Shown here: positions 4,511 to 53,431 of the stretch, piece after piece
Layout: each line of letters begins with the position of its first letter
Numbering within the stretch: the stretch's first letter is position 1
From: Luteibaculum oceani
GTDB taxonomy: Bacteria > Bacteroidota > Bacteroidia > Flavobacteriales_D > Luteibaculaceae
DNA length: 64,000 nucleotides
Assembly: GCF_007995015.1 (NCBI RefSeq)
Contig: NZ_VORB01000002.1
Location: forward strand, 1-64,000
Direction of reading: 5' to 3'
Notes under the pieces: model-generated
The model's database searches: none
What the model was told of the DNA's origin: nothing
The model's input: the letters and a program-made list of their open reading frames with translations, nothing else
Made by a program: the position numbers and the translations under genes

Positions 4511-7500
4511 ATGAAGACATTAACTAGTAACCAAAAAGCCATTTGGTTTGATCAACTTGTTCATTACAATTCCTCATTATATAACCTCGGCGGGTATGTG
4601 CGCATAGCCGGCGATTTAAATTTGAATCTGCTTGAAAAGGCAATTTCGGAAACCATTGCTTCTGCGGATATTTTCCAACAATCCATTCAACTTGTGGAGG
4701 GAGAGCCTCAATTTGGTTCGGAAATAGATTCAAGTGCTTTTCAGGTTCATGATTTACGAGGAACGCACAAAACGGAATCTGAGTTAAAAGCACAATTAAA
4801 AAACGAGCATAAAATCCCGTTAAATTGGAACGAGGGTGAATTGTTTTCTTTTGGCTTGTTTATCCTTTCCGATGACCTCAGCTATTGGCATATAAAAGTG
4901 CATCATGTGCTTATGGATGGTTGGGCTGTTTCGGTGCTGGTAAAAAAGGCCAGTGAAAATTACAACCAACTTTTATTAAAGGGAACCCTTTCGAGTCCGC
5001 TTCCCCTATTTGAGGCGGCCGTTCGAGAGGATCTGGAATATGTAGAGAGCGATGAGTACGAAAACGATAAAAGGTATTGGCTAAAGCAATTTGAGACGCT
5101 ACCCAGTAGTGTTAAATTTCCAGAGCCCACGCCTGCTGCACCAGAAATTGAAGGAAGTTTTAGAAAATCATTTTCTCTGTCATGGAAATCCTATAGTGCG
5201 CTCAACGAATTGGCTAGAGCGCATAACCAAAGTACTTTTCATCTTTTTCTTGCGGCTCTATACGCCTACTTTTCAAAGTCCTATCAAATCGATGATTTAT
5301 GTATGGGTACGCCGATACTGAATCGGCCAAGTAAAGCTTTTAAAAATACGGTTGGTCTATTTACCGGGATAAGCCCCCTTAGAATTCAAGGACCTAAACA
5401 CCTAAGCATTTCGGAAATAGGGCAAAACCTTCGCAAGCAACTTCGTCAGAATTTCCGTCATCAACGATTTCCTTTAAGCCATTTGGTGCAGGAACTCAAG
5501 AAGACTTATCCCAAGACAAACCGGTTATTTGACGCGGTGTTGTCCTTTGAAAAGCACGACTATCAGGTTCGGTTTGGAGCTGCAACAACACAACAAGAGG
5601 CCCTTCCACATGGGGATGAGCAAACTCCACTGGCATTATATGTTCGTGAATATGGCGCTGGTGAGCCGGTTACTATCGACTTGGATTTTAGGGGCGAAAT
5701 ATGGGATGATTTCCATTCCAGTCAGTTTGTGAATCAATTCCAGAGCGTGCTTGCGCGTATGGATCAATTGATTGAACAACCGATATCCGAGCTAAACTTG
5801 TTGACGCCTGACGATCTCGATCAACAATTAAAGGAATGGAATTATGCCGATAATGCACTGGGCAAGACTGTAGTAGAAATGTTTTCTAATGCGGTTGATC
5901 AATTTCCAAATCAATTAGCCGTAGCAGATGGGGAGGAAGAAATTTCCTACGAAGTGCTGGATAAAAGAAGCAATCAATTATCGCATTTACTGGCTGCTAA
6001 TCACATTTCAAAAGGGGATATTGTAGGGATTAGAACCGATAGAAAGGTTCACACCATAATTTCAATTTTAGCCATTCTAAAGGCGGGTGGTGCCTATTTG
6101 CCCATAGATTCTAATTACCCTGTTGAACGACAAAGGTATATGGTTGAAGATGCCCAAATTAAAAGCTTGATTACAGCGGGTGATGAGCAGGTGGATTTGG
6201 GTGTACCCGCTTTGAAAATCCAAGATGAAGTACTGGATAGTTATCCTACTACGGCGTTAAATTTAACTATAAACCCTTCCGATTCTGCCTACTTAATATA
6301 CACTTCGGGATCAACCGGGCAACCCAAGGGTGTTGTTGTAACGCACCGAGGAACGGTGAATCAAAGTTTGGAGCAAGTCAAGGCCTTCGAGGTAAGTCCA
6401 TCAGATCGCTGCATGCTTTTTTCCTCTTTGTCCTTTGATTCCTCTGTTGCGGAGATCTTCATGGCCTTATTTTCTGGGTCTAGTCTGCATATTTGTCCAG
6501 AAGATACCAGGAAAAACCCATCGGATTTTGAAGCCTTTTTAGCACAAGAGCGCATCAGTTACCTAACAGTAACGCCTTCGTTTTTAAGCTTACTGCGTCC
6601 AGAAGCTTTTAAGGGAGTTCGTGCGCTATTAACAGGAGGAGAGGCCGTTAAACGCAAGGATATAAGACGCATTGCACAATATTGTAGGCATTTTAATGTG
6701 TATGGGCCAACGGAAAACTCAGTTACCTCTACTTTTTACGAATTCGACGAGCGGATTCCAACCGGTATAAATATGCCCATTGGAAAGCCGGTGCCCAATA
6801 CCCAAGTTTATATACTAGATGCAGATTTAAGCCTGCTGCCGATAGGAAGTGTTGGTGAAATATATTTGGGAGGAGCCCAGTTGTCTAAGGGGTACATACA
6901 CCGCCCTGAGATTACAGCCGAACGTTTTATTGCCTCGCCCTTTGCCAAGGGAGAAAAACTGTACAAAACAGGGGATCTTGGTAAATTCTTGCCCGATGGA
7001 AATATTGTTTACCTGGGAAGAACAGATAATCAGATAAAGCTTCGTGGATTTAGGATTGAAATAGGGGAGATTGAAAATGGACTGATAGAGCACCCCGAAA
7101 TAAGCAACGCAGGGGTGCTTTTAAAAACCGATCATTCTGGGGAGGGCTACCTCCTTGCTTTCTATGTTTCTAATAAGGAACTCAGCGAAACTGAATTAAA
7201 AGAGCATTTGGGGGCCTTCCTACCCGAATTTATGGTACCTAGCTTTTTTCATCGGCTGGAAAAAATGCCTTTATCGGTAAATGGTAAGGTGGACCGGGAT
7301 GTACTGCATAAAATTGAGTATAGAAAATTATCGAATCCGAAGGAGTGTCAAAATTTAGAAACGGATTTTGAATTTTGGATTGCTGAAAAGTGGAAAACAC
7401 TTCTTGGAGTTGAAATAGTAGGAAAAGAATCAAATTTTTTCCAATTAGGTGGACACAGTCTAAAAGCAGCTAAGTTTATTGGTCTTTTAGAAAAGGAACA

Positions 7501-10500
7501 AGGTATCAAAGTGCCTCTAGCGGTACTTTTCGAGCATCCACAATTAGGCTCCTTAGCACAAACCCTGGAAAATGCAGCTCCTGTACTTCAGAAGAACACT
7601 CCAAAAAATTTAGGTGCAATTAAAACCATAGCCCTTACGCCTAGTCAAAAAAATATTTGGTTGGCAGAGCAGCTAAATGAAGGAGCAGCTGCTTTTAATA
7701 TTCCGGTTGGGATAGTCATTAAAGGCGATTTAGATACCCATCTTTTTCAGCAGAGTTTAAATAAGCTGGTTCAAAAACACGAGGTTCTTCGTGCTTATTT
7801 TATAGAGGCAGACGGAGAGCTTGAACAAGGATTTAGTGAAAACGTAGAAGTTGCGGTTAACCTTCATAATGATGAGGAACTATCCGCCCTGGTAAAGCAG
7901 TACATTCACTATAAATTCGATTTAACCCAGGCACCACTGTTAAAGGCAGGATTGGTGCCTCTTGCATCAGGGGAGCATTTATTTCTCTTATCCATTCATC
8001 ACCTTATTTCAGATGGCTGGTCGATGAATCTCTTTTTAGAGGATTTGGAATCTTTGTATAGGGGAGAAGAAGGGGTTAAGATAGAAGCAGGGTTTAAAGA
8101 ATATGCCTTTGCTCTTAATTCGGGAATTGAAAACAAGGCTAATGCACTGGCTTGGAAGTATTGGCAAAATCAGCTGAAGGGACTACGTCCATTGGAGCTG
8201 CCATACGATGGATCTCCCCATACAGCTAAATCTTTTGAGGGTAAGGTGCAACGTCTAACCCTGTCTGCAACCATCAATGAAAAGATAAAACGCATTTGCG
8301 AGCAACATCAGTTGAGTCGCTTTATGTTGGTTCAAGCCATTACAAAATTGATGCTACACAAGTTGTGTAAGTCCACCGATTTTGCATTGGGTGCACCGGT
8401 TTCTGGAAGGGAGACCGTGCAATACCACAACACCATGGGATTATTTGTACAAACGATTCCATTTAGGACTAAAATTGATGCAGAAGCTCCCGTGGGAGAC
8501 TTTTTACAGCAAATCAAAACTGAAACCCTGGATGCACTGAAGTATCAAGACTTTCCAGTGGACGCCCTTCCGGAAGCTAACCGTCCTGCTTTCAATGTTT
8601 TGGTGAGTATGGATGATCAAAACCTAAATAAATCCAGTTCCTGGTACCATCACGATCACCCTCTCATTAAAGCGTTAGAATTAGATTATGGAGTGAGTAA
8701 GTTCGATCTGTCGTTTTCTTTCCAAGAAGTGGCGGGGGAGTTACAAACCCATTTGATCTACAACACCCATTTGTTTGAGGACCAAACGGCTAGGTTGATG
8801 CTCAAATATTGGGAGAATGTGTTGCTGGAAGTGCTTAGTAAGGATGCTTTTGAATGCACCATTTTGGACTTAAAGTTAGCGGATGGTTCTGAAGCAGAAA
8901 CCCTAAAATACCTAGGGCTACCAGAAACCCAATACGAAAGGGCTTTTCCTTTAACTGCGGTGCAACGCGATATGTATCTAACCTCGGAGTTGGCTCCCAA
9001 TGAGGGGGCGTTGAGGACTTTGGGGTACCTATTTGTAAGAGAAAAAATAGATGCTCCAATTTGGCAACAAGCACTTGAAGATCTTACAAAACAAGAAGCC
9101 ATTTTGAGGACGACTACGGTCGAAAAAAATGGAAAGGTTTATCAAGCCGTTCGGAGGTCCAAGAAAACCAACTTCAAATACATAGATTTCTCGTCTCAGA
9201 ACCTTTTGGAAAGTGATGTGAAGTCATTGGTGATCGAATACTGTGAAATATCACAAGATGTTCATCAGGAACTTGTAAATCATTGGCTTTTTAAGCTAAA
9301 TGACACCTGTTATGTGTCGGTCTTGAGTGCACATCACATGCTTTTAGACGGGAGTTCTTTCTCTTATTTTTATGAATTACTAGATGGTTTTTACACTGCG
9401 CGAGCGAAACAGCAGGAGCATGTGAAAAACCCCTATACCAGTCCGTTTTACCGTTTCGCCAACGATATAGAGCATCGTTTCGATCGCCCTCAAATGATTA
9501 ATTTTTGGGAGCAGCATCTAAAAGGGGTAGAACCGCTCAATTACCGAGGGGTAGTACAAAGGAACGCAGAGTATAGAACGGATCATATTAATATGAGCTC
9601 TGAGTTATCCGATGGAGTTAAAAAGTTTTGCAAGGAAAATAGAATCCGCCCCGACCTTTATTTCAAAGGATTAGTCGCCCTTATTGTAAGGGGAGTTTGT
9701 GCCACCGATACCGACTTTTGTTTGCGCGAAAATCTTTTTGGTCGTTCCAAAAGTAATCTGAACACGCTAGGGTGTTTTATGTCTACCAAACCCTTGCGTA
9801 TTTATCAAGATGAATGTGACTCCGATAAAGAGTTTGCAGATTTTTGTAAGGCTATTAAGAAGGAGGGGATCCGCACAAAAGACGCTGGAAACATATCGGT
9901 TTCGGCACAAAATAAAATTATTGGAAATGAACCGCTATCCTTTTACTTCAATTTCCAAAAATTCTTAGAGCCCGATTCCGCATTAAAGATGAGTTATCTC
10001 TACCAGGTATTTCATGTTATGAAAGAGCAGGTAGAGATACGCGTTGGAGAGAATAATACAGGTTTCGACTTTAGATTGGATTACGACCTAAGCGTGTTCA
10101 ATGGTAGGGATTTCATGCAGCGTTTGATATACCTATCGGAGCAGTTGGTGAATGGGGTTACCACTATTGGCGCCTTAAAATGGACTCTTCCCGAGGAGGA
10201 ACGTGAATTGGATTTATGGGCTCAAAATCCAGCCGATTTTAATTTTCAAAGCATTACCAGCCTTTACCATAGGAATCTAGATTCGGTAAAGAACAGCAGG
10301 GCTTTGGTGTACAAAGATCAAGCTTGGACCTATGGTGAATTGGAGAAGCTAAGTAATCAGCTGGCGCATTATTTAGCAAATAGTGGAGTGAACAAAGGAG
10401 ACCGTATAGCCCTAATTTGCGATCGCGGTCCCTGGATGTTAACGGGCGTTTTGGCTTGTTTAAAATCGGGTGCAGTATACATACCGATAGCCGCAGATCT

Positions 10501-13500
10501 TCCAGAGCAAAGAATAGCATACATTTTAGAAGATGCGCAACCAAAATTGGTACTGAGTGATGTTGAAGATTGGAGAAATACGTTTGAAGCAAGCTCCTTC
10601 GATGTGGTCTTGCAAGAAAAAGAGGACTTTGTTCCCGTAGCTTTAAACCCAGAGGATAGCGCCTATATTATATACACTTCTGGAACTACTGGTGTGCCAA
10701 AAGGGGTGGAGGTTCAACACAAAGCCTTATCTAACATTTCTCAGTCTTGGACACAGACTTACGGACTGGATAAAGAAAGGCCTAAATTATTGCAGTTGGC
10801 CAGTTTTTCCTTTGATGTTTGCACGGGAGATTTTGTACGAAGCTTGGCAAATGGAGGGAATTTAATCATTTGTCCTTCTGATATTCGCCTCGATCCAGCA
10901 TCTATGTATCAATTGTTGGAGGAACACGAAATTAATGTGTTTGAGGGAACTCCTGGGTTAGTGGAACCCTTAATGCGATATGTATCCGAAAACGGAAAGT
11001 CGCTTAGCTATTTAAAACTTCTTATCATTGGCTCTGATACCCTGCAGATAGCAACCTATAAATGGTTAAGAGCAGAATTTTCGAAGGATATCAGAATTAT
11101 TAATAGCTACGGGGTAACAGAAGCATGTATCGATTCTGCGTGTTTTGAGGACGAAATCCCAGAAAAGCTGTACTGCAAAACTACCCCCATTGGAAAACCT
11201 TTGCATAACTCCAAAATGTTGGTTTTGGATTATCGCAAACAAAAGGTTCCGGTGGGTATTCCGGGTACACTTTACATTGGTGGAACGGGCTTAGCAAAAG
11301 GATATGTGAACCAAGACCTTTTAACGCGCGAAAGGTTCGTTCAAATTAATGATGAAAAGTACTATGCCACGGGAGATCAAGTTAGGTGGCTTCCGAATGG
11401 GGATGTGGAATTTTTAGAAAGAACCGATAACCAAGTTAAGGTAAGAGGTTATCGCATTGAACTGGCCGAGATTGAGTATCAGCTTAATCGGATTTCGGAA
11501 ATCGAAAAAGCCATTGTTTCCGCTCCGAAATTAGACGGAGATAGACAATTGGTAGCCTATTTAAAAGCAGCTAAGGAAATAAAGCCACAAAGAATTAAGG
11601 AAGTTCTTTCTGCAATGCTTCCAGAGTACATGGTTCCCCAACACTTTATTTTTATTGAAACCTTCCCCTTAACTCCAAACGGTAAAATCGATTACCCTGC
11701 ATTACCCGGAATTGAACAGTCTGAGTTGTCTTCCACCTTTGTCGAACCGAGAAATGATCTCGAGGAGCAAATGTGCGCCATTTGGGCCAGTGTTTTAAAT
11801 AGAGAAAGGGTTGGAATTGCAGATAACTTTTTTGAGCTAGGTGGCCACTCGTTAAGGGCCACGGAATTGGTTTCCCGGATAAAAAAGGAGCTGAAGGTAA
11901 AGCTGCCTTTAAATAGAATCTTTAATGCTCCAAGGATTATTGATTTTGTGTTAGACTGGCCAGATAAATCAAAAAATGATTTGGGTCTGGCTAAGGCTCC
12001 AGTTCGGCGCTTTTACCCTTTGTCCAGTGCTCAATTGCGGACTTATTTGCTCCAGGCTATGGATCTTGAGGCAACTACCTACAACATGCCTGCTGGTTTT
12101 GAATTGAAAGGCAAGTTGGATCTGGAAAAACTGAAACAGGCATTCTTTCAACTCAGTGTATTGCACGAGGTACTGCGAACTTCTTTTCACTTGGAGAACG
12201 GGTTGCCGGTGCAGCAAGTGCACGATCAAATTGAAATACAAATAGATCGTTCTTACGAGAAAAATGCTCAGTTAAACGAAGTTCTTCAAACCTTTGTTCA
12301 ACCCTTCGATTTAAGTAAGGCCCCTCTGTTCCGTTTGCATGTGAATAGTTTCACAGCAACCCATCATTTATTAATGATGGATATACACCATATTATCTCG
12401 GATGGGGTTACAGTTCAGGTTCTGGTTAGAGACTTGATGAACTTGTACGCTGGGATTTCGAGAAGCAAACCCACTTTTCAATACAAGGATTTCGCTTGGT
12501 TCCAACATCAAGAGGATAATGCACAACAACAGGTTCTGAGAAACTATTGGTTGAGTCAATTTTCGGATGGAGTTCCAACTCTGGATTTTCCAAGCTCCTT
12601 CCCTCGACCAAAATCTCTTTCGGGCAAGGGAAAAAGACATACAGAAATTTGGGACGAAGCAGTATTACAGAGGCTTAGAAGTTTCTCAAAAAGCCATAAT
12701 TGTACGCTCCAGCAAGTACTTAATGCGGCTTGGATAGTTCTAGTACATAGATACACTGGTAAGTCGGATTTGGTGATTGGACAACCGGTTTCTGGAAGAA
12801 CACTTTCCGAAACGCAAGATATGGCTGGTATGTTTGTAAATACTCTCGCGCACCGATATCAAATAAATCCAAATGACGACTTTTTATCTTTTATAAAAAG
12901 AGCTTCAGACCGACAACTTGAGGGACTTGACCACCAAGATTTTCCTTTCGAAAAACTGGTGGATGCATTAAAACTTCAACACGATAGAAGTCGACATCCC
13001 ATTTTTGATGTGGCATTCTCCTATTTAAAACCAGATATACAGGAGTTTAAGTTGTCTGGTTTAGACATTAAGCAACTTAAGCTGGAACACCGGTCTGCCA
13101 AGTTCGATCTCCTGGCAGAGGTGGTCGAAATGAACAACCACTTACAGTTAGAACTGGAATACTCTACGGACCTGTTTGATGCTGAATTTATGGAGCAAGT
13201 AGCCCGTGATTACCAATCGTTGTTATGCGAATTAATAGCGGCTCCTGAACAGCAAGTTGGGACCATTCCTTTCCTTAACCAAGAGGAAATTGAAAGGATA
13301 ATAAATGCGACAGACTATACGAACGTAGCTTTCGATCACGGGGAGCTAATTCACACGTATTTTGAAAAACAGGTAGCGCAATATCCAGACAAAACAGCAC
13401 TAGTTTACCAAGGAGAAACATTATCGTACCGCGACTTAAACAAACGCGCAGAGCTAATTGCAAGTCATTTGCCCCAGGGAGGCGAAAGAATAGCCTTGTT

Positions 13501-19180: not shown

Positions 19181-19188
19181 AATATATC

Positions 19189-20028
19189 ATGAAAAAACTA
19201 GCAGTTATAGGAGCTGGGGTAATGGGACAGGGTGTCTCTTACCAATTTGCAAAATTTGGATATCAGGTAACACTTATCGATCTGTCTGATGAAGTGCTGG
19301 AGGATGCAAAAAAGAAAATTAAAAATATCGAGCGCTTGGATAAACTGTTGCATAAGTCGAAAAGCACTTATGTAGCGCTTGATCAAATTACATGTACTAC
19401 GGATTTATCGTCCATTTCATCTGCCGATTTTATCATTGAAAACGTTACCGAAAACATAAAAATTAAAGAAACCCTTTATCAAGAGATCGCCAAGTACATC
19501 TCGAATGATGCCCTCCTTGCGGTTAATACATCGGCAGTTTCCATAACTCGTTTGGCTTCTTTTCTTCCTCAACCAAAGAATATAATGGGTATACACTTTA
19601 TGAACCCCGTGCATTTAAAACCAACTGTTGAGGTTATCAGAGGTTTCCATACAACCGAGGAAACGATTAACACAACCCAAACCCTGCTTCAATCTGTTGA
19701 AATGGAGGGGGTAGTGGTAAACGATTATCCAGGGTTTATTTCCAATCGAGTTTTAATGCTAACGGTAAATGAGGCCATATTCTCCCTGCAAGATGGCGTG
19801 GCAGATGCAAAATCGATAGATAAAATATTTAAGCAGTGCTTTGGCCATACCATGGGGCCATTAGAAACGGCCGATCTTATCGGTTTAGACACCATCCTTT
19901 ACACACTAGATGTGCTAGTAGAAAGCTATCAGGATACAAAATTTAGACCCGCACCACTTTTAAAAAAAATGGTAGACGCCGGTTTACATGGCCGCAAGAG
20001 CGGAGAAGGATTTTTTAAATACAATTAG
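19189..20028 (+). CDS. 3-hydroxyacyl-CoA dehydrogenase-like enzyme (FkbK type)
   Basis: This 279-aa NAD-dependent dehydrogenase has an N-terminal Rossmann motif, GAGVMGQG (residue 8 on), an acidic residue ending beta2 (TLIDLS), the catalytic His136 in GIHFMNPVH, and the typical C-terminal helical domain (FISNRVLMLTVNEA). In the known methoxymalonyl and hydroxymalonyl pathways (FkbK of FK520, ZmaG of zwittermicin) such an enzyme oxidises glyceryl-ACP to the 2-hydroxy-3-oxo form. It sits 8 nt after NRPS1 and next to the ACP, acyl-CoA dehydrogenase and FkbH-like genes, which supports that role over beta-oxidation. The assignment to hydroxymalonyl-ACP is inference from context; the enzyme class is certain. 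Confidence 0.92.
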   Translation: MKKLAVIGAGVMGQGVSYQFAKFGYQVTLIDLSDEVLEDAKKKIKNIERLDKLLHKSKSTYVALDQITCTTDLSSISSADFIIENVTENIKIKETLYQEIAKYISNDALLAVNTSAVSITRLASFLPQPKNIMGIHFMNPVHLKPTVEVIRGFHTTEETINTTQTLLQSVEMEGVVVNDYPGFISNRVLMLTVNEAIFSLQDGVADAKSIDKIFKQCFGHTMGPLETADLIGLDTILYTLDVLVESYQDTKFRPAPLLKKMVDAGLHGRKSGEGFFKYN

Positions 20029-20053
20029 GCAACCCCACAAATTAATTACAACT

Positions 20054-20305: not shown

Positions 20306-20310
20306 TTCCT

Positions 20311-22431: not shown

Positions 22432-22441
22432 AATCGTGCAC

Positions 22442-27321: not shown

Positions 27322-27331
27322 TAACCGAAGC

Positions 27332-30300: not shown

Positions 30301-33300
30301 TCAGGCCTACCACTATAAGGATTTTGCCTATTGGCTCAATAATCTTTCAGAAAGTACGGTTCAAAAACAGGAGCAATTTTGGAAGGATCAATTACAGGGA
30401 TTGCAACCCTTAGAGCTTCCCTTTGACAAAATACCCGCCGAAGAGGATCATAGCAGGGGTGAAAATTTCGAAGTCCATTTGCCTGCCAAGATTTCCGAAG
30501 ACCTTTTTAACAAAGCGAAAGCATTAAAATCTACTCCATATACACTGGTTCTTAGTGCCTATCAGCTTTTGATAAGTCAATGGGCTAATAAAAAGGATGT
30601 TTCTATAGGGACTGTGTATGCCGGACGACTTAATCCAAAAATGGAAGAGGTTTTGGGGATGTTTGTCAACACTTTGCCCCACCGTTTGGACCTTTCCGAA
30701 GTAGATAGCATAGATGAGTTGATTGAAAAAAATAATCGACTCAGACTTCAGATATATGAGAATCAATGTTATCCTACTGAGGATTTGGCCGAAGTACTGG
30801 AAATTGAAGTTCCCAGACATAAACATCCCTACTTCCAAACCCTCTTTGTATATCAAAACATTGAATTTGATGAGTTCGCATTTGAAGGGTTAGAAATAGA
30901 ACCTATTGCATCAAACGAGAGGGTAGCTAAGTTTGATTTGACCCTGGAGGTAGAAGAAAAAGAAAAGGCCTTTGTACTGCGATTTAATTATCCTGCTTCG
31001 GCATTTCAAAAAACTACAATGGAGCGTTTGGGAGATGGGTTGGTTACCATCCTGAAGAAAATAGCAGATAATTCCCAGTTATCTATTGGCGACGTTTCTT
31101 TTATCCCAGAAAAAGAAGCCGAATTAATGGAGCGGTTTTCTTTTGGAGAAGATATTCCAGCGCCGCCTTTTGCTTCTATTGTAGAGGCTTTTTCCAGTCA
31201 AGTTCTAAAAAATGGAGATCGCATTTGTGTAGAAGACGATACCACCGCACTCAGTTACAAGGAGGTGGATGCAAAATCTAACCAGTTAGCAGCACTTCTA
31301 ATCGAGAGTGGTATAGCACCAGAAGAGTGTGTGGGAATATTACTGCCAAGAAGTATTGATTATCTCATTTGCATTCTAGGGATAATGAAGGCGGGAGGCT
31401 GCTTTGTTCCTTTCGATGTAAATCATCCGAGTAAGCGGATAAAAAACCTTATGAACGATGCGGGTATAAAAAAGATGCTTGCTAACCAAGAGCAAATAGA
31501 AAACCGTAAGAAGGATCAGCTCGAGCTATTAAACCTTTCTGTACTGCCAGAAAAAGAGTACAAGTACCAATTACCAAAAGGAAATCAATTGGCTTATGTG
31601 CTCTATACATCGGGGTCAACGGGGCAGCCTAAAGGTGTGGAGATAGAGCATGCTTCCCTAATGCACACGCTTTGGTCGGAACGAGATATATTAAGATTGA
31701 GTGAAAGTACGGTAACCCTTCAACAAACAAATCCTGTTTTTGATGTAGCCCTTTTGGAGTTCTTTCTTCCGCTTTTGGTAGGTGGAAAATTATTCATCCC
31801 AAACCATGAAAAAGTGTTGGATTTTGAATACCTCATTCCACTTATTAAGAATAAGAAGGTTACCAATTTCCAAGGTACGCCCAGTCTGTACCGAAGCATG
31901 ATTGAGAGCGGGGTAAGGTTGGAAGAAGATCACCATTTATCCGTGATATGTGTGGGAGGAGAATCTCTAGATCCTGCTTTATTCAAATCGCTCAGATCCT
32001 TTGTTGGGGATCGTGTTTTTATCGATAATCACTATGGTCCCACAGAGGCCTCCATTGATGTGATCTGTAACCAGAATCTTCGATCTTTTAACGAAAATAT
32101 TATTGGTAGACCCTATCCCAATACGGAGATTAGAATTTTAAACTGGCAGGATGCCATTTGTGGTGTGGGTACCCCAGGGGAACTATGCATTAGTTCACCA
32201 GGCCTTGCAAGGGGCTATAGAAACGATCCAGAAAAAACGCAAAAGGCCTTTAAATATCATCAACATCTTGGAGGAAAACGATATTACCATACAGGCGATC
32301 TTGCTAAATGGACTAAAGAAGGTGAAATCCACTTTTTAGGCAGAATAGATGATCAGATAAAAATTAGGGGACAGCGAGTAGAGCTGGGAGAAATTTCATC
32401 TCAAATGCGGTCTTTAAATGGAGTTCGGTATAGTCAGGTTCTTCTGCATCAAGATGGAAATGATAAGTTTTTGGTGGGTTATTATAAAGCCGATCGAAAT
32501 GTTGCTTGGAGGGAAGAGCTTTTGGAAATTTTACCTGAGGCAATTGTCCCATGGCACTTTGTTGAAGTAAAAGATTGGCCTTTAACCAGCAACGGGAAAA
32601 CCGATACTCAAAAATTACGCCGTTTAGGACAAAATGTTCTAGTTAGCAAAAAGGGCGAGGTAGTTCTGCCTAAAAATGAGTTGCAGTCTCAGTTATTGGT
32701 GATTTGGAAAGACCTGCTGGATAGAAATAATTTAGGAATAACCGATAATTTTTTTGAGGTAGGCGGGCATAGCTTAAAAGCAACTCAGGTCATATCAAGA
32801 GTGCACAAAGAACTCAAACTCGACTTAAAATTGGCCGATCTTTTTCAGAATCCTACTATTGAAGGGTTGAGTAAAATACTGGAAAAAGGGCAAGCCTTCG
32901 AGACCGAGCAACTAAAGCCCATTGAAAAAGCCGATAGTTATCCGCTATCAGCCGCACAAAGAAGGCTTTTTGTTTTGCATCAATTTCAAGAACAACAATC
33001 TGCCTATAACCTTCCTGCGGCCTTTAAATTAATTGGAGATCTTAACATCAAGGCCCTAGAAAAGGCATACCAGCAATTGGTAGACCGCCATGAGGCACTT
33101 CGAACTTCCTTCCATGTCAAAGATCAACTTCCTGTTCAGGTAATTCACGATAACTTAAAGGTTAATATTCAATTAGAACGCCATCCAACCAAAAGCCCTT
33201 CAGAAATTGAGCGCATAGCTGCTAAGGATGCTGTGGATCCCTTCGACTTGGGGAAAGCACCTCTTATTCGATTAAAGGTGCTGGAGCAACAAGCAAATGA

Positions 33301-36300
33301 ATTTATTTGCTTATTCAATATGCACCATATCATTTCTGATGGATGGTCTATTAATATTTTAATTCAAGAACTACTTGCATTCTATCATGCCGAGCTAGAA
33401 GGGGAGGAGTTAAGGTTAGCAGATCTTTCCATTCAGTACAAGGATTTTGGTGCATGGCAAAACAACCTTTTAGAAAGCGAGGCTGGTAAGAAAATGGCTG
33501 CTTATTGGATGCATCAGTTTAGCGGAGAAATTCCAATGCTGGACTTGCCTACAGATCGATCCAGACCAAAAATTAAAACCAACGTTGGAACCGCAATTTC
33601 TTTTAATTTTAATGGCAAACTAAGTAGCGAAATCCAAGCCTATTGTCAACAAAAAGAAGTGAGCCCTTTTATGTTTGTTTTGGCCCTTACAAAGGTGCTA
33701 CTGTACAAACAGAGTGGACAAAAAGAAATTGTTATTGGTACCCCGGTTGCAGGAAGAGAGCAGCTTGAGACAGAAAATTTAATTGGTTGTTTTGTAAATA
33801 CCCTAGCCCTAAAAAGTGCAATTCCAAGCGAAAGTCTTTTCGAACAGTTTCTTCAAGTGTTAAAAGAAAGCACGCTTGAAGCATTCGCTCATCAACAATA
33901 TCCCTTCGATCGTTTGGTAGATGAGGTAGTTGTGGATAGAGACACCAGTAGATCGCCTCTTTTCGATGTAATGGTGGTAATGGAAAATTACGATGAGACC
34001 GATGCGCAGTTTTCCGGGCTAAAAATGGAGGGCATTGAGGTGGAAAGACAAGTAAGCAAATTTGATCTTTCTTTCTATTTCAAGGAAAAAACAGAGGGCC
34101 TTCATGTGTTGCTGGAGTACAATACGGATTTATTCGACCGCTGGAGAATGGATTCATTGTTAGAACAATTGCAAACCCTGGCATCTCAGGTAATCCATCG
34201 TCCCGATGTTCCAATAAATCAGCTGAAAGCCACTTCACCAAAGGACATAGATACTATTAGGGAATTCAATAACACCCAAACTGCACCCTATCCAGAAACA
34301 ACCCTTTTGTCAAAAATGGATGAGGGTCGAGCTTCCTATGCAGGATTACCAGCGCTTGAGTTTCAGGGGAAAATATATAGCCACCAAGAGGCTCATGAAT
34401 TAAGCGATAAAATTGCAGCAGGTCTTATCGACCGATTAAAGATTAAAGCCAATGACATTGTAGCGCTGGCCATAGAGCGTAGCGAATGGATGCCTATAGC
34501 AATATTGGGGATTTTAAAATCGGGAGCTGCCTATTTACCTATAGATCCAAACACGCCAGAATCTAGGCTTAATTTCATTTTAGAAGACAGTAAGGCAAAA
34601 GGCTTAATATCAGATTTGCATCCAAATGGGCTTAGAATTGAGGATCTGATACAAACGAAAAGTAAACTTCCGGCTGTGTCCCACTCTGCCAAAAACTTGG
34701 CCTATGTTATCTACACTTCTGGGTCCACAGGCGCCCCAAAGGGGGTGATGATAGAGCATGGAGCTTTGTTGAATCGATTAAATTGGATGCTAGAGGCCTA
34801 CCCTATAAGTACTTCTGATGTTATCCTTCAGAAAACCAACTACACGTTTGATGTTTCTGTCTGGGAAATGCTTTTGTGGTGTATTTCTGGAACTAAACTA
34901 AGTATCCTAAACCCCGGAGGAGAAAAGGATCCCACCGAAATTAACAGGGCTATTGAGAATGGGGTTAGTGTGCTCCACTTTGTACCTTCCATGCTTTCGG
35001 TTTGGTTAGAATATTTAGAGTCCATGACGGAAAAACCAATTCTGGAATCACTTCGATTGGTTTATGTGTCAGGCGAGGCTTTAAATAAAAATCAGGTAGA
35101 TCGATTCCAAAACCTATTCGGAAGCAGGGTACAACTGGTGAATAAATATGGTCCAACAGAAGCCGCCATAGATGTAACTCATTTTGATTGTGCAAGAGCC
35201 AGCGAATTCTCCGCGATTCCTATCGGACGACCTATTTCTAATATCAGGATTTATGTATTGAACAAAAATCTGCAAGAACAGCCAATTGGAACCCCTGGAG
35301 AGCTATGCATAGCTGGAGACGGATTGGCGAGAGGCTATTTAAATAGGGAGGATTTAAACCGACAGAAATTTGTTGCCGCACCACACTTAAATGAAGAGAA
35401 AATATACCGGACAGGCGACCTGGTTTCTTGGCTTCCTCAGGGCGAAATTGCCTACCACGGGCGACTGGATTTTCAAGTGAAAATAAGAGGTTTTAGAATA
35501 GAACTCGGCGAAATTGAACAACAACTGTTATCCATGGATAAGGTGGATAATGCCGCGGTAATTACCATTAAGGATGAATCCGGTCAGGATCAAGTTATCG
35601 GGTATTTCACGGGCAAAAATACAATTGATGTAAACGAAATTACCACGGCCCTTGGCAAGAATTTGCCAGCATATATGCTTCCTAATCAGTTGATACAACT
35701 GGAAACCATTCCAACAACAGCCAATGGAAAACTAAATAGGAAGGAACTGCCATTGCGTTTGGATAAGCAATTTTCTCAGGAAAAATGGTCTTCACCTATT
35801 GGGGCTGCCGAAAATGAACTTGCCGAAATATGGAAAGGGTTGCTTGGCCTAGACCAGGTATATAGAGAAAATAATTTTTTCCATTGCGGAGGAGATTCCA
35901 TAAAGGCCATTCAGTTAAGTGCACGTCTGCTAAAGATGGGCCGCAGTATTGAAATTGGACAGATATTTCAATACCCTACACTCCAAGCAATGGCTGCTGC
36001 AATGGAAAATGGGCTTATCGATATTCCACAAGATCCATTGGAAGGAGCATTGCCATTGTCACCAATTCAGAAGCGCTTTTTTAGAAAGAACTTCGAAAAC
36101 ATAAACCACTACAACCAAGCCGTTTTACTTGAGCTGCCCGATAATTATGAGGAAAAAACACTTGAAAAAGCGCTAACCTTACTTTTGCAAAAGCACGATG
36201 GATTAAGGGCGCAGTTCAAAAAACAAGGCAAGGAATGGTTACAGACTATAGTCCCGGCATCGGAGTTTAATTTCCCTGAAATTATTGGGCGTAATGCTGC

Positions 36301-38047
36301 CTTGTCGCTTACTGATGAGTTGCTTAATAGTTGGCAGGCCAGCTTAGATATCGAAAAGGGTAAATTAATGAACTTGGGGGTGGTCAACCATAACCAACGA
36401 AATTATCTTCATTGGGTTTGCCACCATCTCATTATTGATTCTGTTTCTTGGCGAATACTCTCCGAAGATCTGGCTGCCACCTATACTCAACTTGCCCTGG
36501 GTAGTTCCGTACAATTACCGCCAAGAACCCACAGCATTAAAGATTGGTTAAATGGATACAATAGCCTCTTAGAGGCTGGAGACAACGATTGGGCAAACTT
36601 TTGGCAAGAAAAGATAGCGATAGAAAATCTTGAAGTTCCCAAGACCAAAAACGCGAAATCGGATTCTTTCAGAGTATCAATATCTCCAGAACAAACCCAG
36701 ATTATTATTAAGGACTACGCTGGTAAGGGGTATAACGTTAATGATGTATTGTTGGCAGCATTGTCCAAAAGTGTACAGCATTGGAAAGGAAAGAGTAGCG
36801 TTAAAATTCTGCTGGAAGGACACGGCCGAAATGGACATCCAGCTTTAAACCTTTCTCAAACTGTTGGTTGGTTTACCAGTGTGTATCCCTATGAATTAAA
36901 AAATGAGCAATTCTGGAATTTAAGTGACTTACTGGAATTTCATAAAAACCAAAGATCATTACTGCCACACGAAGGGGCTAGTTATGATTTTTGGGTGGAC
37001 AAATTGGATAAAGAATTAAATGAACCTGAAGTAGAGTTTAATTATTTAGGTCATTTAAATAACGCAACAAAAGATAGAACCGATTTTGGTTTAGCCCCCT
37101 TAGATACCGGGTTAAGTGTGGCAGTATCTAATATAGATCGTATTCGCCTTTCTATAACTGCGGCGATTGCACAAGGAATACTCCATATCCAGTTCGAGAG
37201 TAGAACTGGGGTGGATAATGAGGCAATAGGACAGTTGGCGTCGATTTTCGAAGCAAATCTGCAACAAATGTTGAATGCTTTTGCTGAGGTTAGAACCTTC
37301 GAATCCGAAAACCAAGAAGTTTTAATGGAATTGGAAAAGCCTTTCCATTGTTTGACCAAAGGAAAGAAGCAATCTATATTTTTCATGCCGCCTGCGTTAG
37401 GTGCTTATTTTGCCTTTAGAGAGGTAGCAGATCAATTGCATGATTTTAATGTCTATGCAGCCAACTACTTAAATGACGAAAATCGATTTGAAAAGTATTT
37501 CAATTACATTTCTAAGGTTCAACCAGCTGGGGAACTTATTCTAGGGGGATACTCTGGAGGGGCGAATCTTAGTTACGAGCTTGCTGTATACCTGGAACAA
37601 AAAGGAAGAAGGGTTTCTCAGTTAATTTTTATTGATGGTAAATGTGCTGAAAAAGAAGAGCGTTTTGAGGAAAAAGACCTGGAAAAACAGGTGATTTCTT
37701 TAATTGGAGCTCCCGATGAAAAACCGGTGCATCCGCTGCTTTCCGATCCCAAAGTAAGGGAATCCATATCCGCTAAGATAAAATCATACGACGCCTTGTT
37801 ATATCGAATGGTTCACAGTACTCAATTGGCAAAAACTACCATTTATCAAATCAGTTCAGAAGAGTCTCGAAGCAATGGAATTGCTACGCAGGGCTGGGAG
37901 AAGCTATGTGAAAAATTTATCCATTTTAATGGATATGGTTTGCATCGTGAGATGCTTCAAGGAGAGCATTTAGTTAAAAACTGTGAGTGGATTGTTGAGG
38001 CTATTAACCAGGAAATAACATCTACTAAAAATCTTCTTGCCCATTGA
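27332..38047 (+). CDS. Three-module terminating non-ribosomal peptide synthetase (NRPS2)
   Basis: A 3571-aa enzyme. Order: partial C (residues about 10-240, no HHxxxDG)-A6-T5 (Ser782); C (HHIVSDG at 963)-A7-T6 (Ser1814); C (HHIISDG at 1998)-A8-T7 (GGDS, Ser2856)-E-TE. The epimerase has HHLIIDSVSW at 3031, EGHGRNGH and FNYLGH; a GGDS carrier in front of it is typical. The thioesterase (from about 3335) has GGYSGG with Ser3408 and a late His in LHREML. Codes read by eye: A6 DVLYHGGVGK and A7 DVLQCGHIDK (both unassigned), A8 DVWHYSKIDK, close to the serine code DVWHLSLIDK. The last residue is thus probably D-serine or a relative, followed by hydrolysis or cyclisation by the TE. It begins 10 nt after the PKS gene, and its stop overlaps the transporter frame. 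Confidence 0.97.
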   Translation: MREDLLQSKKAVDYWFNKLKTPIDPLRLGVYTNEDRTRIEHKEKLNLAIGKLIDQRSNNKDFSKFILFQAPLFLLGSKLSNSDFIRSLSPALNDNNPNGFLFTEAEISGDMKVKELFRHLQEDLKKAWSQQSAAVAELKTKLEANNCGFEDNFHFGYAYENLAPINETSNFDVQVASEGGNYFITFRAFTQNHNEFVLKELAWSYQELLGAMLQNPEASLGSLSLLSKDQLSHLDAFNETTSNLPFRSLLDYFLEQAEKTPEKIALEDAVCTLTFEQTLRQIQILQNEMVASDVKAGDVVAVCAPRSVLQPLTLLACQSVGAIYLPIDFNNPPDRTNFIVEDANTKLVISSKDFKVDVDASVYQWSLNKSLPEKEYPFEPIAPEAPCYIIYTSGSTGKPKGVVIRHDALGNYIHSIQDRHDEWFAEEDRCLSMANPAFDVALYEYALAFHTGCTLYVLEEERVVNPEKVAECLRNEKIAFCYLPPIYLQEIGEIIANNPQDFVLKKLHVGLEAILDEKLQRFLDALPQLEILNGYGPSEITVGSNYFRVTSQEPKKRVVPIGTAILNTQLFVLDRHGQRAPVGVAGELFVGGIGLAIEYLNRPELTREKFAIHKHIHPHKIYATGDRVVMDKEGNVHFIGRIDNQLKIRGYRVEPGEIEKVLMQHEAVSEALVVAARKDGQLELCAYLVSTETSQTVLREYLGSTLPAYMIPSSWNFIPRIPLTRNGKPDRKNLPEPKFFIESAQVATAETELQKQILASFEAVLHCKMGINDSFFDYGGNSLKAAKLVAHLFDNHKISVPFRSVFQFYTVAGLAASLSADDHSKSIYEIEKAPSLAYYPLSHAQKRMYLTQAVDPKSTIYNMPGAFFINGRVDFERFEDAFLNLIQRHEGLRTRFVQKEGSTVQEIIDKNEFKIEWLSRNEETIEEVLTRFIRPFDLASGNLLRIGCCKWSTDKYLMLIDMHHIVSDGVSASQFLREFDAIYKGKHLKTQAYHYKDFAYWLNNLSESTVQKQEQFWKDQLQGLQPLELPFDKIPAEEDHSRGENFEVHLPAKISEDLFNKAKALKSTPYTLVLSAYQLLISQWANKKDVSIGTVYAGRLNPKMEEVLGMFVNTLPHRLDLSEVDSIDELIEKNNRLRLQIYENQCYPTEDLAEVLEIEVPRHKHPYFQTLFVYQNIEFDEFAFEGLEIEPIASNERVAKFDLTLEVEEKEKAFVLRFNYPASAFQKTTMERLGDGLVTILKKIADNSQLSIGDVSFIPEKEAELMERFSFGEDIPAPPFASIVEAFSSQVLKNGDRICVEDDTTALSYKEVDAKSNQLAALLIESGIAPEECVGILLPRSIDYLICILGIMKAGGCFVPFDVNHPSKRIKNLMNDAGIKKMLANQEQIENRKKDQLELLNLSVLPEKEYKYQLPKGNQLAYVLYTSGSTGQPKGVEIEHASLMHTLWSERDILRLSESTVTLQQTNPVFDVALLEFFLPLLVGGKLFIPNHEKVLDFEYLIPLIKNKKVTNFQGTPSLYRSMIESGVRLEEDHHLSVICVGGESLDPALFKSLRSFVGDRVFIDNHYGPTEASIDVICNQNLRSFNENIIGRPYPNTEIRILNWQDAICGVGTPGELCISSPGLARGYRNDPEKTQKAFKYHQHLGGKRYYHTGDLAKWTKEGEIHFLGRIDDQIKIRGQRVELGEISSQMRSLNGVRYSQVLLHQDGNDKFLVGYYKADRNVAWREELLEILPEAIVPWHFVEVKDWPLTSNGKTDTQKLRRLGQNVLVSKKGEVVLPKNELQSQLLVIWKDLLDRNNLGITDNFFEVGGHSLKATQVISRVHKELKLDLKLADLFQNPTIEGLSKILEKGQAFETEQLKPIEKADSYPLSAAQRRLFVLHQFQEQQSAYNLPAAFKLIGDLNIKALEKAYQQLVDRHEALRTSFHVKDQLPVQVIHDNLKVNIQLERHPTKSPSEIERIAAKDAVDPFDLGKAPLIRLKVLEQQANEFICLFNMHHIISDGWSINILIQELLAFYHAELEGEELRLADLSIQYKDFGAWQNNLLESEAGKKMAAYWMHQFSGEIPMLDLPTDRSRPKIKTNVGTAISFNFNGKLSSEIQAYCQQKEVSPFMFVLALTKVLLYKQSGQKEIVIGTPVAGREQLETENLIGCFVNTLALKSAIPSESLFEQFLQVLKESTLEAFAHQQYPFDRLVDEVVVDRDTSRSPLFDVMVVMENYDETDAQFSGLKMEGIEVERQVSKFDLSFYFKEKTEGLHVLLEYNTDLFDRWRMDSLLEQLQTLASQVIHRPDVPINQLKATSPKDIDTIREFNNTQTAPYPETTLLSKMDEGRASYAGLPALEFQGKIYSHQEAHELSDKIAAGLIDRLKIKANDIVALAIERSEWMPIAILGILKSGAAYLPIDPNTPESRLNFILEDSKAKGLISDLHPNGLRIEDLIQTKSKLPAVSHSAKNLAYVIYTSGSTGAPKGVMIEHGALLNRLNWMLEAYPISTSDVILQKTNYTFDVSVWEMLLWCISGTKLSILNPGGEKDPTEINRAIENGVSVLHFVPSMLSVWLEYLESMTEKPILESLRLVYVSGEALNKNQVDRFQNLFGSRVQLVNKYGPTEAAIDVTHFDCARASEFSAIPIGRPISNIRIYVLNKNLQEQPIGTPGELCIAGDGLARGYLNREDLNRQKFVAAPHLNEEKIYRTGDLVSWLPQGEIAYHGRLDFQVKIRGFRIELGEIEQQLLSMDKVDNAAVITIKDESGQDQVIGYFTGKNTIDVNEITTALGKNLPAYMLPNQLIQLETIPTTANGKLNRKELPLRLDKQFSQEKWSSPIGAAENELAEIWKGLLGLDQVYRENNFFHCGGDSIKAIQLSARLLKMGRSIEIGQIFQYPTLQAMAAAMENGLIDIPQDPLEGALPLSPIQKRFFRKNFENINHYNQAVLLELPDNYEEKTLEKALTLLLQKHDGLRAQFKKQGKEWLQTIVPASEFNFPEIIGRNAALSLTDELLNSWQASLDIEKGKLMNLGVVNHNQRNYLHWVCHHLIIDSVSWRILSEDLAATYTQLALGSSVQLPPRTHSIKDWLNGYNSLLEAGDNDWANFWQEKIAIENLEVPKTKNAKSDSFRVSISPEQTQIIIKDYAGKGYNVNDVLLAALSKSVQHWKGKSSVKILLEGHGRNGHPALNLSQTVGWFTSVYPYELKNEQFWNLSDLLEFHKNQRSLLPHEGASYDFWVDKLDKELNEPEVEFNYLGHLNNATKDRTDFGLAPLDTGLSVAVSNIDRIRLSITAAIAQGILHIQFESRTGVDNEAIGQLASIFEANLQQMLNAFAEVRTFESENQEVLMELEKPFHCLTKGKKQSIFFMPPALGAYFAFREVADQLHDFNVYAANYLNDENRFEKYFNYISKVQPAGELILGGYSGGANLSYELAVYLEQKGRRVSQLIFIDGKCAEKEERFEEKDLEKQVISLIGAPDEKPVHPLLSDPKVRESISAKIKSYDALLYRMVHSTQLAKTTIYQISSEESRSNGIATQGWEKLCEKFIHFNGYGLHREMLQGEHLVKNCEWIVEAINQEITSTKNLLAH
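27362..28060 (+). other. C-domain remnant at the N-terminus of NRPS2
   Basis: The first 240 residues resemble only the second half of a condensation domain, from the AxxYWxxKL element to the linker before the A domain. The N-terminal subdomain with HHxxxDG is missing. The complete C domain that this module needs lies at the end of the preceding PKS protein. The remnant may be a docking or scaffold piece. Confidence 0.75.
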
Positions 38048-39309
38048 AAAATCAATCTACAATTCCTATGTACACATTGATAGGAGGAAGACTTATTTCT
38101 GGGTTGGGGTCTGGGATATTTAGTTTTGCCCTTAGCCTACACGTGCTCGACGTGAGTGGGTCTGCTTTTTTGTTTTCTGTTGTTTTGGGCTTCGCCCTGA
38201 TTCCAGGGGTCTTAGTGAATTTGTTTGCTGGGGCTTTGGTAGATAAATGGAACAAGAAAAGCATCATTATCGCCACAGATGTACTCTCTGCTTTGTGCAT
38301 TTTTTTGATGTTGCCCTTGTGGACACAGTTTCAGGAATCTATTCCTTTTATCGTGTTGTATTCTGCCTTTTTGAGCATGATACAAGCATTGAACAATTTG
38401 GCGGTGCTAAGTATTATCCCCGAATTGGTCGAAGAGGAAAAGGTGAATGCCACCAACTCTATTTTACAAGTGGTTAATACCCTTATTTCTTTTGTTGGCC
38501 CCATGTTAGGAGCATTGTGCTATGCTATTTTTAGCATGGAGTTTATCCTAATTTTAGATGCCATTTCTTTTTTGGCCGCCGGTTTGCTTGAAATTACTCT
38601 AAAGCCTATTCGGGTACTTGCTCAGGCTCAATCCTACGGATATTGGAGCGAAATGAAGGATGGATACCAGTTTTTGGTGAAAAAGCCGGTATTGAGATTG
38701 TTTATTGGTTTGGCAATTGTGATCAATGGATTATACATGCCCTTAATTTTATTGGTAATTCCATTTGTCAGTTATGAAATCATGCAGGTTTCCAGTTATC
38801 AACTCTCTGTTATAGAGGCCGCTTGGGCTATTGGGGGTGCTTTAGGTGGGATATTTATTGCCACCCAAAAAAACACCATTCCCTACATCCAAAAACTTTT
38901 TTATTTGCTGGCCATTCAAGCTATTTTAATCCTGCTATGGGTTCTTCCCGAACAACTGCATTTTGAACACTTAAAGTGGGCAGTATGCATATTCTTGTCC
39001 GCCAATTTACTCATCATTGGCTTACTTAACGTTATTCAGAACGTACCGCTATTTTCATACATACAGTTAACCATCCCAGATAACTTAAGGGGAAAAGTAC
39101 TAGGGTTTGTAAGCGTTTTTATGATGGTGTCTACCCCGGTTGGAATGTTTTTATTTGGAAGTTTCCTGCAATCTTTCGAATGGAGATACATATGCCTGGT
39201 TTCGGCAATTATTATTCTGGGACTTTGCGTTTATGCCAATTACTCTAAAACTTTTCTGGCCTTTAAAATGGAATTGAGTTTATCGGATAAAAATCAAAAA
39301 CACGGCTAA
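38044..39309 (+). CDS. MFS exporter (EntS-like) of the peptide product
   Basis: A 421-aa major facilitator with about 12 membrane segments. The loop after segment 2 reads NLFAGALVDKWNKK, matching the G-x-x-x-D-R/K motif of the family, and the layout resembles the MFS_3/enterobactin exporter group often found in NRPS clusters. Its position between NRPS2 and the type II thioesterase suggests that it exports the product or gives self-resistance. The start is either TTG 38044, which overlaps the NRPS2 stop (TTGA) and would couple translation, or ATG 38068; the sequence does not decide. Confidence 0.9.
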   Translation: MKNQSTIPMYTLIGGRLISGLGSGIFSFALSLHVLDVSGSAFLFSVVLGFALIPGVLVNLFAGALVDKWNKKSIIIATDVLSALCIFLMLPLWTQFQESIPFIVLYSAFLSMIQALNNLAVLSIIPELVEEEKVNATNSILQVVNTLISFVGPMLGALCYAIFSMEFILILDAISFLAAGLLEITLKPIRVLAQAQSYGYWSEMKDGYQFLVKKPVLRLFIGLAIVINGLYMPLILLVIPFVSYEIMQVSSYQLSVIEAAWAIGGALGGIFIATQKNTIPYIQKLFYLLAIQAILILLWVLPEQLHFEHLKWAVCIFLSANLLIIGLLNVIQNVPLFSYIQLTIPDNLRGKVLGFVSVFMMVSTPVGMFLFGSFLQSFEWRYICLVSAIIILGLCVYANYSKTFLAFKMELSLSDKNQKHG

Positions 39310-39313
39310 CAAT

Positions 39314-40003
39314 ATGCCAAAAATTATATGTCTTCCTTTTGCTGGAGCCTCTAAGTATGCGTACAACCAGTTTAATAATATGGGTGTTGGTTCCTTAGAT
39401 TTTATTGGATTAGATCTACCTGGAAGAGGAATGCGTTTTAATGAGCCTTTGTTGAGGTCGATAGACGAAATGACCCATGATCTGTATAATCAAATACTTC
39501 CCTTTACTAACGAACCTTATTACCTGTTTGGCCACAGTATGGGAGCAATTCTAGGTCAGCGCATATGCGAAAAATTGCACGAGCTCGATAAGCCCTTACC
39601 AAAAAAACTACTGCTATCAGGAAGAGGGGGGCCAGATACGGAGATTACCCACAGAGAATGGCATAAATTACCCCCGAATGATTTCAAGAAAAAGGTATTT
39701 GAGCTAGGCGGTAGCCCTAAGGAAGTATTAGATAATCCTGAGTTAATGGAGTTAATGGAACCCATTTTAAGAGCTGATTTTGAGGCGGTGGAGACTTACC
39801 TTTATCCGAAGATTAACAAATTAGATATCCCAGTTTCTGTTTACTACGGATCGCATGATAAGTGTACTAAAGAGGAGTGCGAAAATTGGCAGGTTATCTC
39901 GGATAAAAAAATAACCTTAACTGAAATAAGTGGCAACCACTTTTTTATTTTCTCTAATGCTCAGCAATTTTTGAACTGCCTTAAACAAGATATTGATGCA
40001 TGA
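39314..40003 (+). CDS. Type II thioesterase
   Basis: A 229-aa alpha/beta hydrolase of the GrsT/SrfAD editing type. The N-terminus has LPFAGASKYAY, then LDLPGRGMR, the nucleophile motif FGHSMGA (Ser near residue 75) and a late GNHFFIF with the catalytic His. Such enzymes clear wrongly loaded or misprimed carrier domains. It lies 4 nt after the transporter and overlaps the PPTase start by 4 nt. Both point to its being part of the operon. Confidence 0.95.
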   Translation: MPKIICLPFAGASKYAYNQFNNMGVGSLDFIGLDLPGRGMRFNEPLLRSIDEMTHDLYNQILPFTNEPYYLFGHSMGAILGQRICEKLHELDKPLPKKLLLSGRGGPDTEITHREWHKLPPNDFKKKVFELGGSPKEVLDNPELMELMEPILRADFEAVETYLYPKINKLDIPVSVYYGSHDKCTKEECENWQVISDKKITLTEISGNHFFIFSNAQQFLNCLKQDIDA

Positions 40004-40596
40004 TCTTTAAGCATGCTTTTAATAGAGATAAGTGGAGTGATCAGGAAACGAACTCTCGATTAACGGCTCTGCCTCTTGAAATAAAACAAAAAGCCTTGCG
40101 ATACAAAAAATGGCAAGACCGCCAGGCTTGCATAATATCGCGAGAGTTGCTCCAAGCATCTCTTCAAGAGTTTTATGGAAATAATGATGATTATTTGGCC
40201 AGAGTACAGGTGGATAGATTTGGAAAACCCTTTTTAAACGAGGAAATCAATTTTAGTATTTCCCATACCGAAGAATTGGTTGTTTGTGCGGTTGCAAAAG
40301 ATGTAATTGGGGTAGATGTAGAAAAAATAAGGGAAGTAGAATTTATAGATTTTCAGCAGTTTTTTACCACCCAGGAATGGAATGAGATCCAGTGTAGTGA
40401 GGAGCCAAAACACACTTTTTACAGGAAGTGGACCATAAAAGAGGCCGTGTTGAAAGCCGATGGTAGGGGATTGAGTGTGCCACTGAATAAAGTTGCTATT
40501 AGCAACCATTCCGCAAATCTCGATGGTAAATTTTTTCATGTTGAAACTCGCTTCTTATCTGAGGATCATCTTTGTGCGGTTGCTTACCAGTCCTAA
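40000..40596 (+). CDS. Sfp-type 4'-phosphopantetheinyl transferase
   Basis: A 198-aa enzyme of the Sfp/Gsp type. It has the CoA- and metal-binding motif VIGVDVEKIRE near residue 104 and FYRKWTIKEAVLKADGRGL near 139-157, plus NFSISHTEE near 83. It converts the apo carrier domains of the NRPS and PKS proteins and the stand-alone ACP to their active forms. It is the last gene of the operon; its ATG overlaps the thioesterase stop (ATGA). Confidence 0.95.
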   Translation: MIFKHAFNRDKWSDQETNSRLTALPLEIKQKALRYKKWQDRQACIISRELLQASLQEFYGNNDDYLARVQVDRFGKPFLNEEINFSISHTEELVVCAVAKDVIGVDVEKIREVEFIDFQQFFTTQEWNEIQCSEEPKHTFYRKWTIKEAVLKADGRGLSVPLNKVAISNHSANLDGKFFHVETRFLSEDHLCAVAYQS

Positions 40597-47615: not shown

Positions 47616-47645
47616 AAAAAGCACGGTATTGGCCGTGCTTTTTTT
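47616..47645. terminator. Bidirectional hairpin terminator
   Basis: AAAAGCACGG and CCGTGCTTTT pair around a 6-nt loop (TATTGG), with A and T runs on the two sides. It lies between the convergent metalloprotease gene and the large type B protein gene and can serve both. Confidence 0.88.
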
Positions 47646-53388: not shown

Positions 53389-53431
53389 GCGGAACACAAA
53401 TGTAGACGAATAAAAATCCCAAAGTTGCTAG

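Follow-up and report, generated by a model that had tools for sequence, protein, structure and literature searches.

The question

In polyketide synthesis, acyltransferases (ATs) select the extender unit for a module. In the window, the 64,000-nt stretch of Luteibaculum oceani DNA analyzed here, a hybrid operon encodes enzymes predicted to make an extender on a carrier protein together with a polyketide module whose own AT is dead. How, then, is this module loaded?

An eleven-gene NRPS-PKS operon

Eleven collinear genes run along the + strand between positions 4511 and 40596. The first starts with an ATG at 4511, with a TTG in frame at 4505, and the intergenic distances, in gene order, are 8, 25, 5, 0, 4, -4, 10, -4, 4, and -4 nt. 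Pfam and NCBIfam scans of the window matched two NRPS genes, a KS-containing gene, five stand-alone genes (3HCDH, ACP, acyl-CoA dehydrogenase, KASIII-like, and FkbH), an MFS exporter, a type II thioesterase, and a PPTase. These families and the spacing of -4 to +25 nt bear out a sequence-only reading of this DNA that had described a complete eleven-gene operon running in one direction. The features are as follows.

4511-19180, + strand: NRPS1, C(starter position)-A1-T / C-C*-A2-T / C-A3-T / C-half A-A4-T
4511-5815, + strand: first C domain of NRPS1, without a preceding carrier
7622-8842, + strand: ordinary C domain of module 2, with the motif HHLISDGWS
8939-10147, + strand: second, divergent C domain (C*), directly 5' of the ornithine-type A domain
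16394-17329, + strand: truncated A domain (half A) of module 4, ending shortly past core A5
19189-20028, + strand: 3-hydroxyacyl-CoA dehydrogenase family protein (FkbK type; 3HCDH or HCDH), with the motif HFMNP
20054-20305, + strand: stand-alone ACP (FkbJ type), with GLVNSLFALEL containing the attachment serine
20311-21462, + strand: acyl-CoA dehydrogenase family protein (FkbI type; ACDH), with the glutamate of IIEG conserved
21463-22431, + strand: KASIII-like protein, with Cys114 at 21802-21804, His279 at 22297-22299, and Asp284 at 22312-22314
22436-23503, + strand: FkbH-type HAD protein, with the motif DLDNTLW (HAD DxDxT)
23500-27321, + strand: PKS gene, KS-psiAT-T-C
24997-25449, + strand: psiAT, degenerate AT remnant, with the GHSxG site reading GLGTGD at 25207-25224
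27332-38047, + strand: NRPS2, half C-A5-T / C-A6-T / C-A7-T-E-TE
36044-37276, + strand: epimerization-type domain (HHLIIDSVSWRIL), 5' of the TE
38044-39309, + strand: MFS exporter (Pfam/NCBIfam)
39314-40003, + strand: type II thioesterase (Pfam/NCBIfam)
40000-40596, + strand: 4'-phosphopantetheinyl transferase (PPTase; Pfam/NCBIfam)

Condensation domains occur nowhere else in the 2.9 Mb genome, and the GC content of the operon is 41.3%, versus 39.1% in the remainder of the window. The flanking genes (Fic, a T9SS-tail protein, and redoxin on the 5' side; GT87- and PMT_2-type glycosyltransferases on the 3' side) look unrelated to the operon. A 1917-aa open frame on the - strand (47644-53397) adjoins the cluster region.

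The first C domain of NRPS1 is, from its position, probably a lipo-initiation domain. Adenylation codes were read at GrsA positions. The code of A2, DVGEIGSIDK, exactly matches an ornithine code, and that of A3, DFWNIGMVHK, exactly matches a threonine code; A7, with DVWHYSKIDK, is serine-like. A1, A4 (DVCYMGSIYK), A5, and A6 received no assignment. Because the modules are collinear, a product of seven residues and one C2 unit is predicted, in keeping with the earlier expectation of a peptide of about seven residues with one C2 insertion, which the family assignments and catalytic motifs support.

Module 2 of NRPS1 carries its C domains in tandem. The divergent C* also precedes an ornithine-type A domain in NRPS2 of Chitinophaga solisilvae (L053/L054, residues 1330 to 1730); the two copies are 32% identical, compared with about 22% against other C domains, and the side chain of ornithine is a possible target of C*. 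In module 4, the half A is joined in frame before the complete A4, with 30% identity between them; the fusion may be what an exchange of A domains left behind. About 235 aa at the N terminus of NRPS2 (27332-28036) resemble the C-terminal half of a C domain; this half C is present although the PKS gene already ends with a full C domain, and it has a weak counterpart in Chitinophaga.

Supply of the extender unit

The FkbH/I/J/K set gives hydroxymalonyl-ACP in the FK520, ansamitocin, and zwittermicin pathways, and the unit is methylated only where FkbG is present. In the window, the acyl-CoA dehydrogenase matches FkbI (1r2j; E value, 1.3e-55), the FkbH-type protein scores 247 bits against NCBIfam model TIGR01686 (cut-off, 147), and the ACP is 44% identical to that of a related Streptomyces californicus cluster. 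The HAD and dehydrogenase motifs were conserved in the alignments of 19/19 loci, and Pfam and NCBIfam scans of the operon genes found no methyltransferase, including the O-methyltransferase FkbG. Since the FkbH/I/J/K motifs are conserved and the operon has no methyltransferase, the set would supply hydroxymalonyl-ACP without O-methylation. Family assignment, catalytic motifs, and the established biochemistry together make this the likely product. The sequence-only reading had listed all four gene types, noted that FkbG is missing, and named the same product; the families and motifs found agree with the gene list and support the product.

A degenerate acyltransferase in the PKS module

Between the KS linker and the T domain of the PKS gene lie approximately 150 to 250 residues of degenerate AT. 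A Pfam scan of this stretch gave no AT match. Read directly, however, it keeps the AT order (KILFLF...GLGTGDLVVACILEEMTFEEAI...TLFVELGTTGCLSRQL...LPSTPLEKIRCWL), without the catalytic Ser and without the part that bears the catalytic histidine, and it is too short to hold the small subdomain. An AlphaFold model of the psiAT region, built from 19 homologues (pLDDT 86), retrieved KS-AT didomains in Foldseek, including ZmaA-AT (4qbu) at rank 6 and colibactin ClbK (8cjh) at rank 24; ClbK was also aligned over residues 2 to 591 in a sequence search with the PKS. The type I KS itself conserves its cysteine in DTACSSS and its histidines in ETHGSGT and KSNIAH, and the module has no KR. The gene had previously been described as KS-T-C, a description that overlooked the dead AT and left loading unaddressed; it is better written KS-psiAT-T-C.

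Every locus whose PKS module could be read (20, the window included) showed the same decay, with the GHSxG motif replaced by GLGTGD, GVGTGD, GLGAGD, SSGxSR, or GSGPGN. An intact GHSxG[EQ] site was found neither in the window nor in any fetched cluster locus. A trans-AT PKS would be marked by a free-standing AT carrying GHSxG, and none was seen inside the cluster or close to it. Nor was there what zwittermicin-type loading would call for, namely, an intact AT, with the GHSxG serine and small subdomain, that recognizes hydroxymalonyl-ACP. A single AT-family gene (PF00698) is present in the genome; it is FabD-like, intact, and on another contig.

A KASIII-like protein with an acyltransferase-type triad

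Alignment of the KASIII-like protein to FabH shows the cysteine conserved, with Gln248 in the place of the FabH His and His279 in the place of the FabH Asn, so the Cys-His-Asn triad of FabH is absent. The residues Cys114, His279, and Asp284 were invariant in 21/21 KASIII homologues (the window included), three of which (L037, L038, and L043) retain the His at the FabH position. In ChlB3 and in CerJ, which transfers malonyl, the triad is Cys113-His296-Asp301, with the Asp five residues after the His (PMC9573744). The triad of the protein in the window is spaced in the same way, Asp284 following His279 by five positions.

The predicted structure (pLDDT 90.6) has a KASIII/thiolase fold, and its best PDB match by TM-score was ChlB3 (up to 0.85); DpsC, NatS, AbyA1, and the CerJ structure whose cysteine carries malonyl (3t5y) were matched as well. 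In profile searches, the protein was slightly nearer FabH (2ebd; E value, 6e-22) than ChlB3 (E value, 1.7e-15). The Cys-His-Asp triad may therefore have arisen independently, and we have not filed the protein in the CerJ/ChlB3 clade because the profile scores do not favor ChlB3. Taken together, triad and modeled fold suggest that it works like a KSIII-like acyltransferase.

Relatives in two phyla

A cluster of Streptomyces californicus encodes a relative of the KASIII-like protein (39% identity) in the order KASIII-ACP-ACDH-FkbH-(A-T)-(KS-?-T-C)-HCDH-NRPS-NRPS. Its replicon is a linear plasmid of 265 kb, unnamed3 (L031/L033), which is a possible route of transfer. A scan of genome contigs with the single KASIII-like protein as the query gave no match, while an alignment of two sequences (window and S. 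californicus) led to 19 further loci: Chitinophaga solisilvae (61%), one MAG (53%), and 17 actinobacteria, mostly Streptomyces. The scan detects only loci that share two short conserved stretches, and the 20 related loci are thus a lower bound. The earlier reading had placed the set in Bacteroidota; it is not confined to that phylum, and most of the relatives found are from Streptomyces.

In nearly every locus, the KASIII-like gene adjoins the supply genes, and ACDH, FkbH, and KS lay inside the fetched flanks in 18 of the 20 related loci. Of the other two, L042 spans a contig of only 6 kb, and L044 (Streptomyces uncialis) has the KASIII-like gene and KS-psiAT-T-C but no FkbH or ACDH within 10 kb; three FkbH homologues are on other contigs of the S. 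uncialis genome. Pairwise identities of KASIII, uncorrected for shared ancestry, track those of ACDH (r, 0.99), FkbH (0.96), HCDH (0.94), and KS (0.86); within the actinobacteria alone, the values, likewise uncorrected, are 0.97, 0.91, 0.92, and 0.79. No close relative turned up in a KASIII search covering 60 relatives from the same order and 395 genomes across the phylum, so the sampled Bacteroidota are mostly without the suite. In 27 further sampled genomes of Bacteroidota, FkbH homologues reach at most 36% identity.

The C. solisilvae cluster (L034, L053, and L054) shares the order HCDH-ACDH-KASIII-FkbH-PKS-NRPS with the window at 60 to 73% identity; by position, its ACP would fall in the gap between HCDH and ACDH. 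It differs in its A-domain set (Thr-Thr-X-PK-X-Orn-X). A threonine-type residue stands two before the KS in all three Bacteroidota clusters, and the residue just before the KS varies.

How the module may be loaded

The architecture, the dead AT, the acyltransferase-type triad, the modeled fold, and the co-occurrence in two phyla were established directly. A dead AT, an extender available only on an ACP, and a neighboring acyltransferase triad on a KSIII fold lead us to propose, with a probability of roughly 0.7, that the KASIII-like protein loads the PKS T domain as a trans-acting hydroxymalonyl transferase in place of a cis-acting AT; its substrate, the direction of transfer, and the final product are what we infer. 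The slightly nearer profile match to FabH, the three homologues with His at the FabH position, the FabD of the genome as a conceivable trans loader, and locus L044 count against this proposal. In the proposed model, the FkbH-, 3HCDH-, and acyl-CoA-dehydrogenase-type enzymes would build hydroxymalonyl on the stand-alone ACP, as FkbH/I/J/K biochemistry suggests. Cys114 of the KASIII-like protein, activated by His279-Asp284 as in CerJ and ChlB3, would take hydroxymalonyl from the ACP, and the protein would hand it in trans to the T domain of the PKS. The KS would then condense the unit with the tetrapeptidyl chain by decarboxylation, leaving, because there is no KR, a 4-amino-2-hydroxy-3-oxo acyl unit. 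The C domain of the PKS gene would join residue 5, and the TE would free an N-acylated heptapeptide interrupted by one two-carbon unit after residue 4.

Loading might instead be of an ordinary, zwittermicin-like kind, with a normal AT (FabD or another, in trans) acting on hydroxymalonyl-ACP and the KASIII-like gene an unrelated accessory. The supply genes are the same as those of zwittermicin; the loading of modules without an AT by FabD-like enzymes in trans is known in principle, and the one FabD-type AT of the genome could in principle serve the module. We nevertheless consider this unlikely: FabD works with malonyl-CoA, the KASIII-like gene neighbors the supply genes nearly everywhere and encodes an acyltransferase-type triad, and ZmaA has a dedicated, intact AT for hydroxymalonyl-ACP that refuses CoA substrates (PMC4207774).

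Two further roles for the KASIII-like protein itself must be considered, and both appear very improbable. It could act as AbyA1 does, joining glyceryl, made as glyceryl-ACP by the FkbH-type enzyme, to a beta-ketoacyl chain. FkbH, an ACP, and a KASIII-like protein are the tetronate trio, all three are present, and AbyA1 is among the structural matches; 3HCDH and acyl-CoA dehydrogenase, however, would be superfluous for a tetronate, the PKS module is internal to a line that ends in E-TE, no chain-terminal beta-ketoacyl intermediate is available, and ChlB3 is a better structural match than AbyA1. Its KASIII fold and catalytic cysteine would also suit an enzyme that condenses, or one that decarboxylates and so primes the module with glycolyl/hydroxyacetyl, leaving the type I KS silent. 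Against such a role, the protein has other residues in place of the His and Asn that decarboxylative condensation by FabH needs, and the cysteine and histidine motifs of the type I KS are intact. Transfer of hydroxymalonyl in trans by the KASIII-like protein is thus the reading that we prefer.

If this reading is true, a KSIII-fold trans loader of a hydroxylated unit would be a new, portable engineering device for dead-AT modules. The decayed ATs also document a passage from a cis-AT to an AT-less module. A bolder proposal is tentative and, on balance, doubtful: that the suite is the origin of the vicinal tricarbonyl (4-amino-2,3-dioxo acid) warhead in inhibitors of serine proteases such as YM-47141, and that a KSIII-fold enzyme replaced the AT in two phyla as a third mode of loading beside cis-AT and FabD-like trans-AT. 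Should the unit be oxidized to the 2,3-dioxo acid, the suite would be a genomic marker for tricarbonyl protease inhibitors.

Comparison with known systems

No known cluster matching the operon was found in the open-access literature, nor was a KSIII-like acyltransferase linked to hydroxymalonyl loading, and the operon is apparently an undescribed variant of a hydroxymalonyl-using NRPS-PKS system. For its product, the elastase inhibitors YM-47141 and YM-47142 of Flexibacter sp. Q17897 contain 2,3-dioxo-4-amino-6-methylheptanoic acid (PMC8954713, PMC7291377). This vicinal tricarbonyl unit corresponds to Leu plus an oxidized C2 (PMC8954713) and is the oxidized form of the predicted 2-hydroxy-3-oxo unit of the window, a correspondence that we treat as a lead only. 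The A4 code is not a recognizable leucine code, and the operon has no oxidase gene. The YM-47141/2 formula fits 74 compositions of six further residues, too many to discriminate; four include Orn, Thr, and Ser. A gene cluster for YM-47141/47142 or another tricarbonyl peptide was not found described in the open-access literature. Two other candidates were set aside: chitinocin of Chitinophaga flava as the product, at about 16 to 18 residues (PMC10239826), and dityromycin as a tricarbonyl analogue, which the literature found did not support.

Colibactin resembles the window in having a degenerate AT in its module, and ClbK (8cjh) matches the KS and psiAT region. In colibactin, ClbD/E/F/G provide an ACP-bound oxidized malonyl from a 3HCDH, an ACP, and an ACDH, and the AT-deficient ClbC and ClbK are loaded in trans; loading, however, falls to ClbG, a true AT, and an NRPS that activates serine stands in place of FkbH. 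CerJ and ChlB3 share with the KASIII-like protein the thiolase fold and the Cys-His-(+5)-Asp triad, and the cysteine of CerJ carries malonyl (3t5y). The acceptor of CerJ is a sugar, ChlB3 transfers 6-methylsalicylate, and neither loads an assembly-line extender; their sequence identity to the protein in the window is about 14 to 20%. Zwittermicin A, to which the locus had been likened from the outset, is a sound comparison for the supply genes and fails for loading, as ZmaA-AT is intact (PMC4207774). The two systems have in common hydroxymalonyl on a stand-alone ACP, an FAD-dependent last oxidation, and an NRPS-PKS line (PMC4207774); in ZmaA, a KR accompanies the intact AT, whereas in the window the module has no KR, its AT is dead, and a KASIII-like protein occupies that place.
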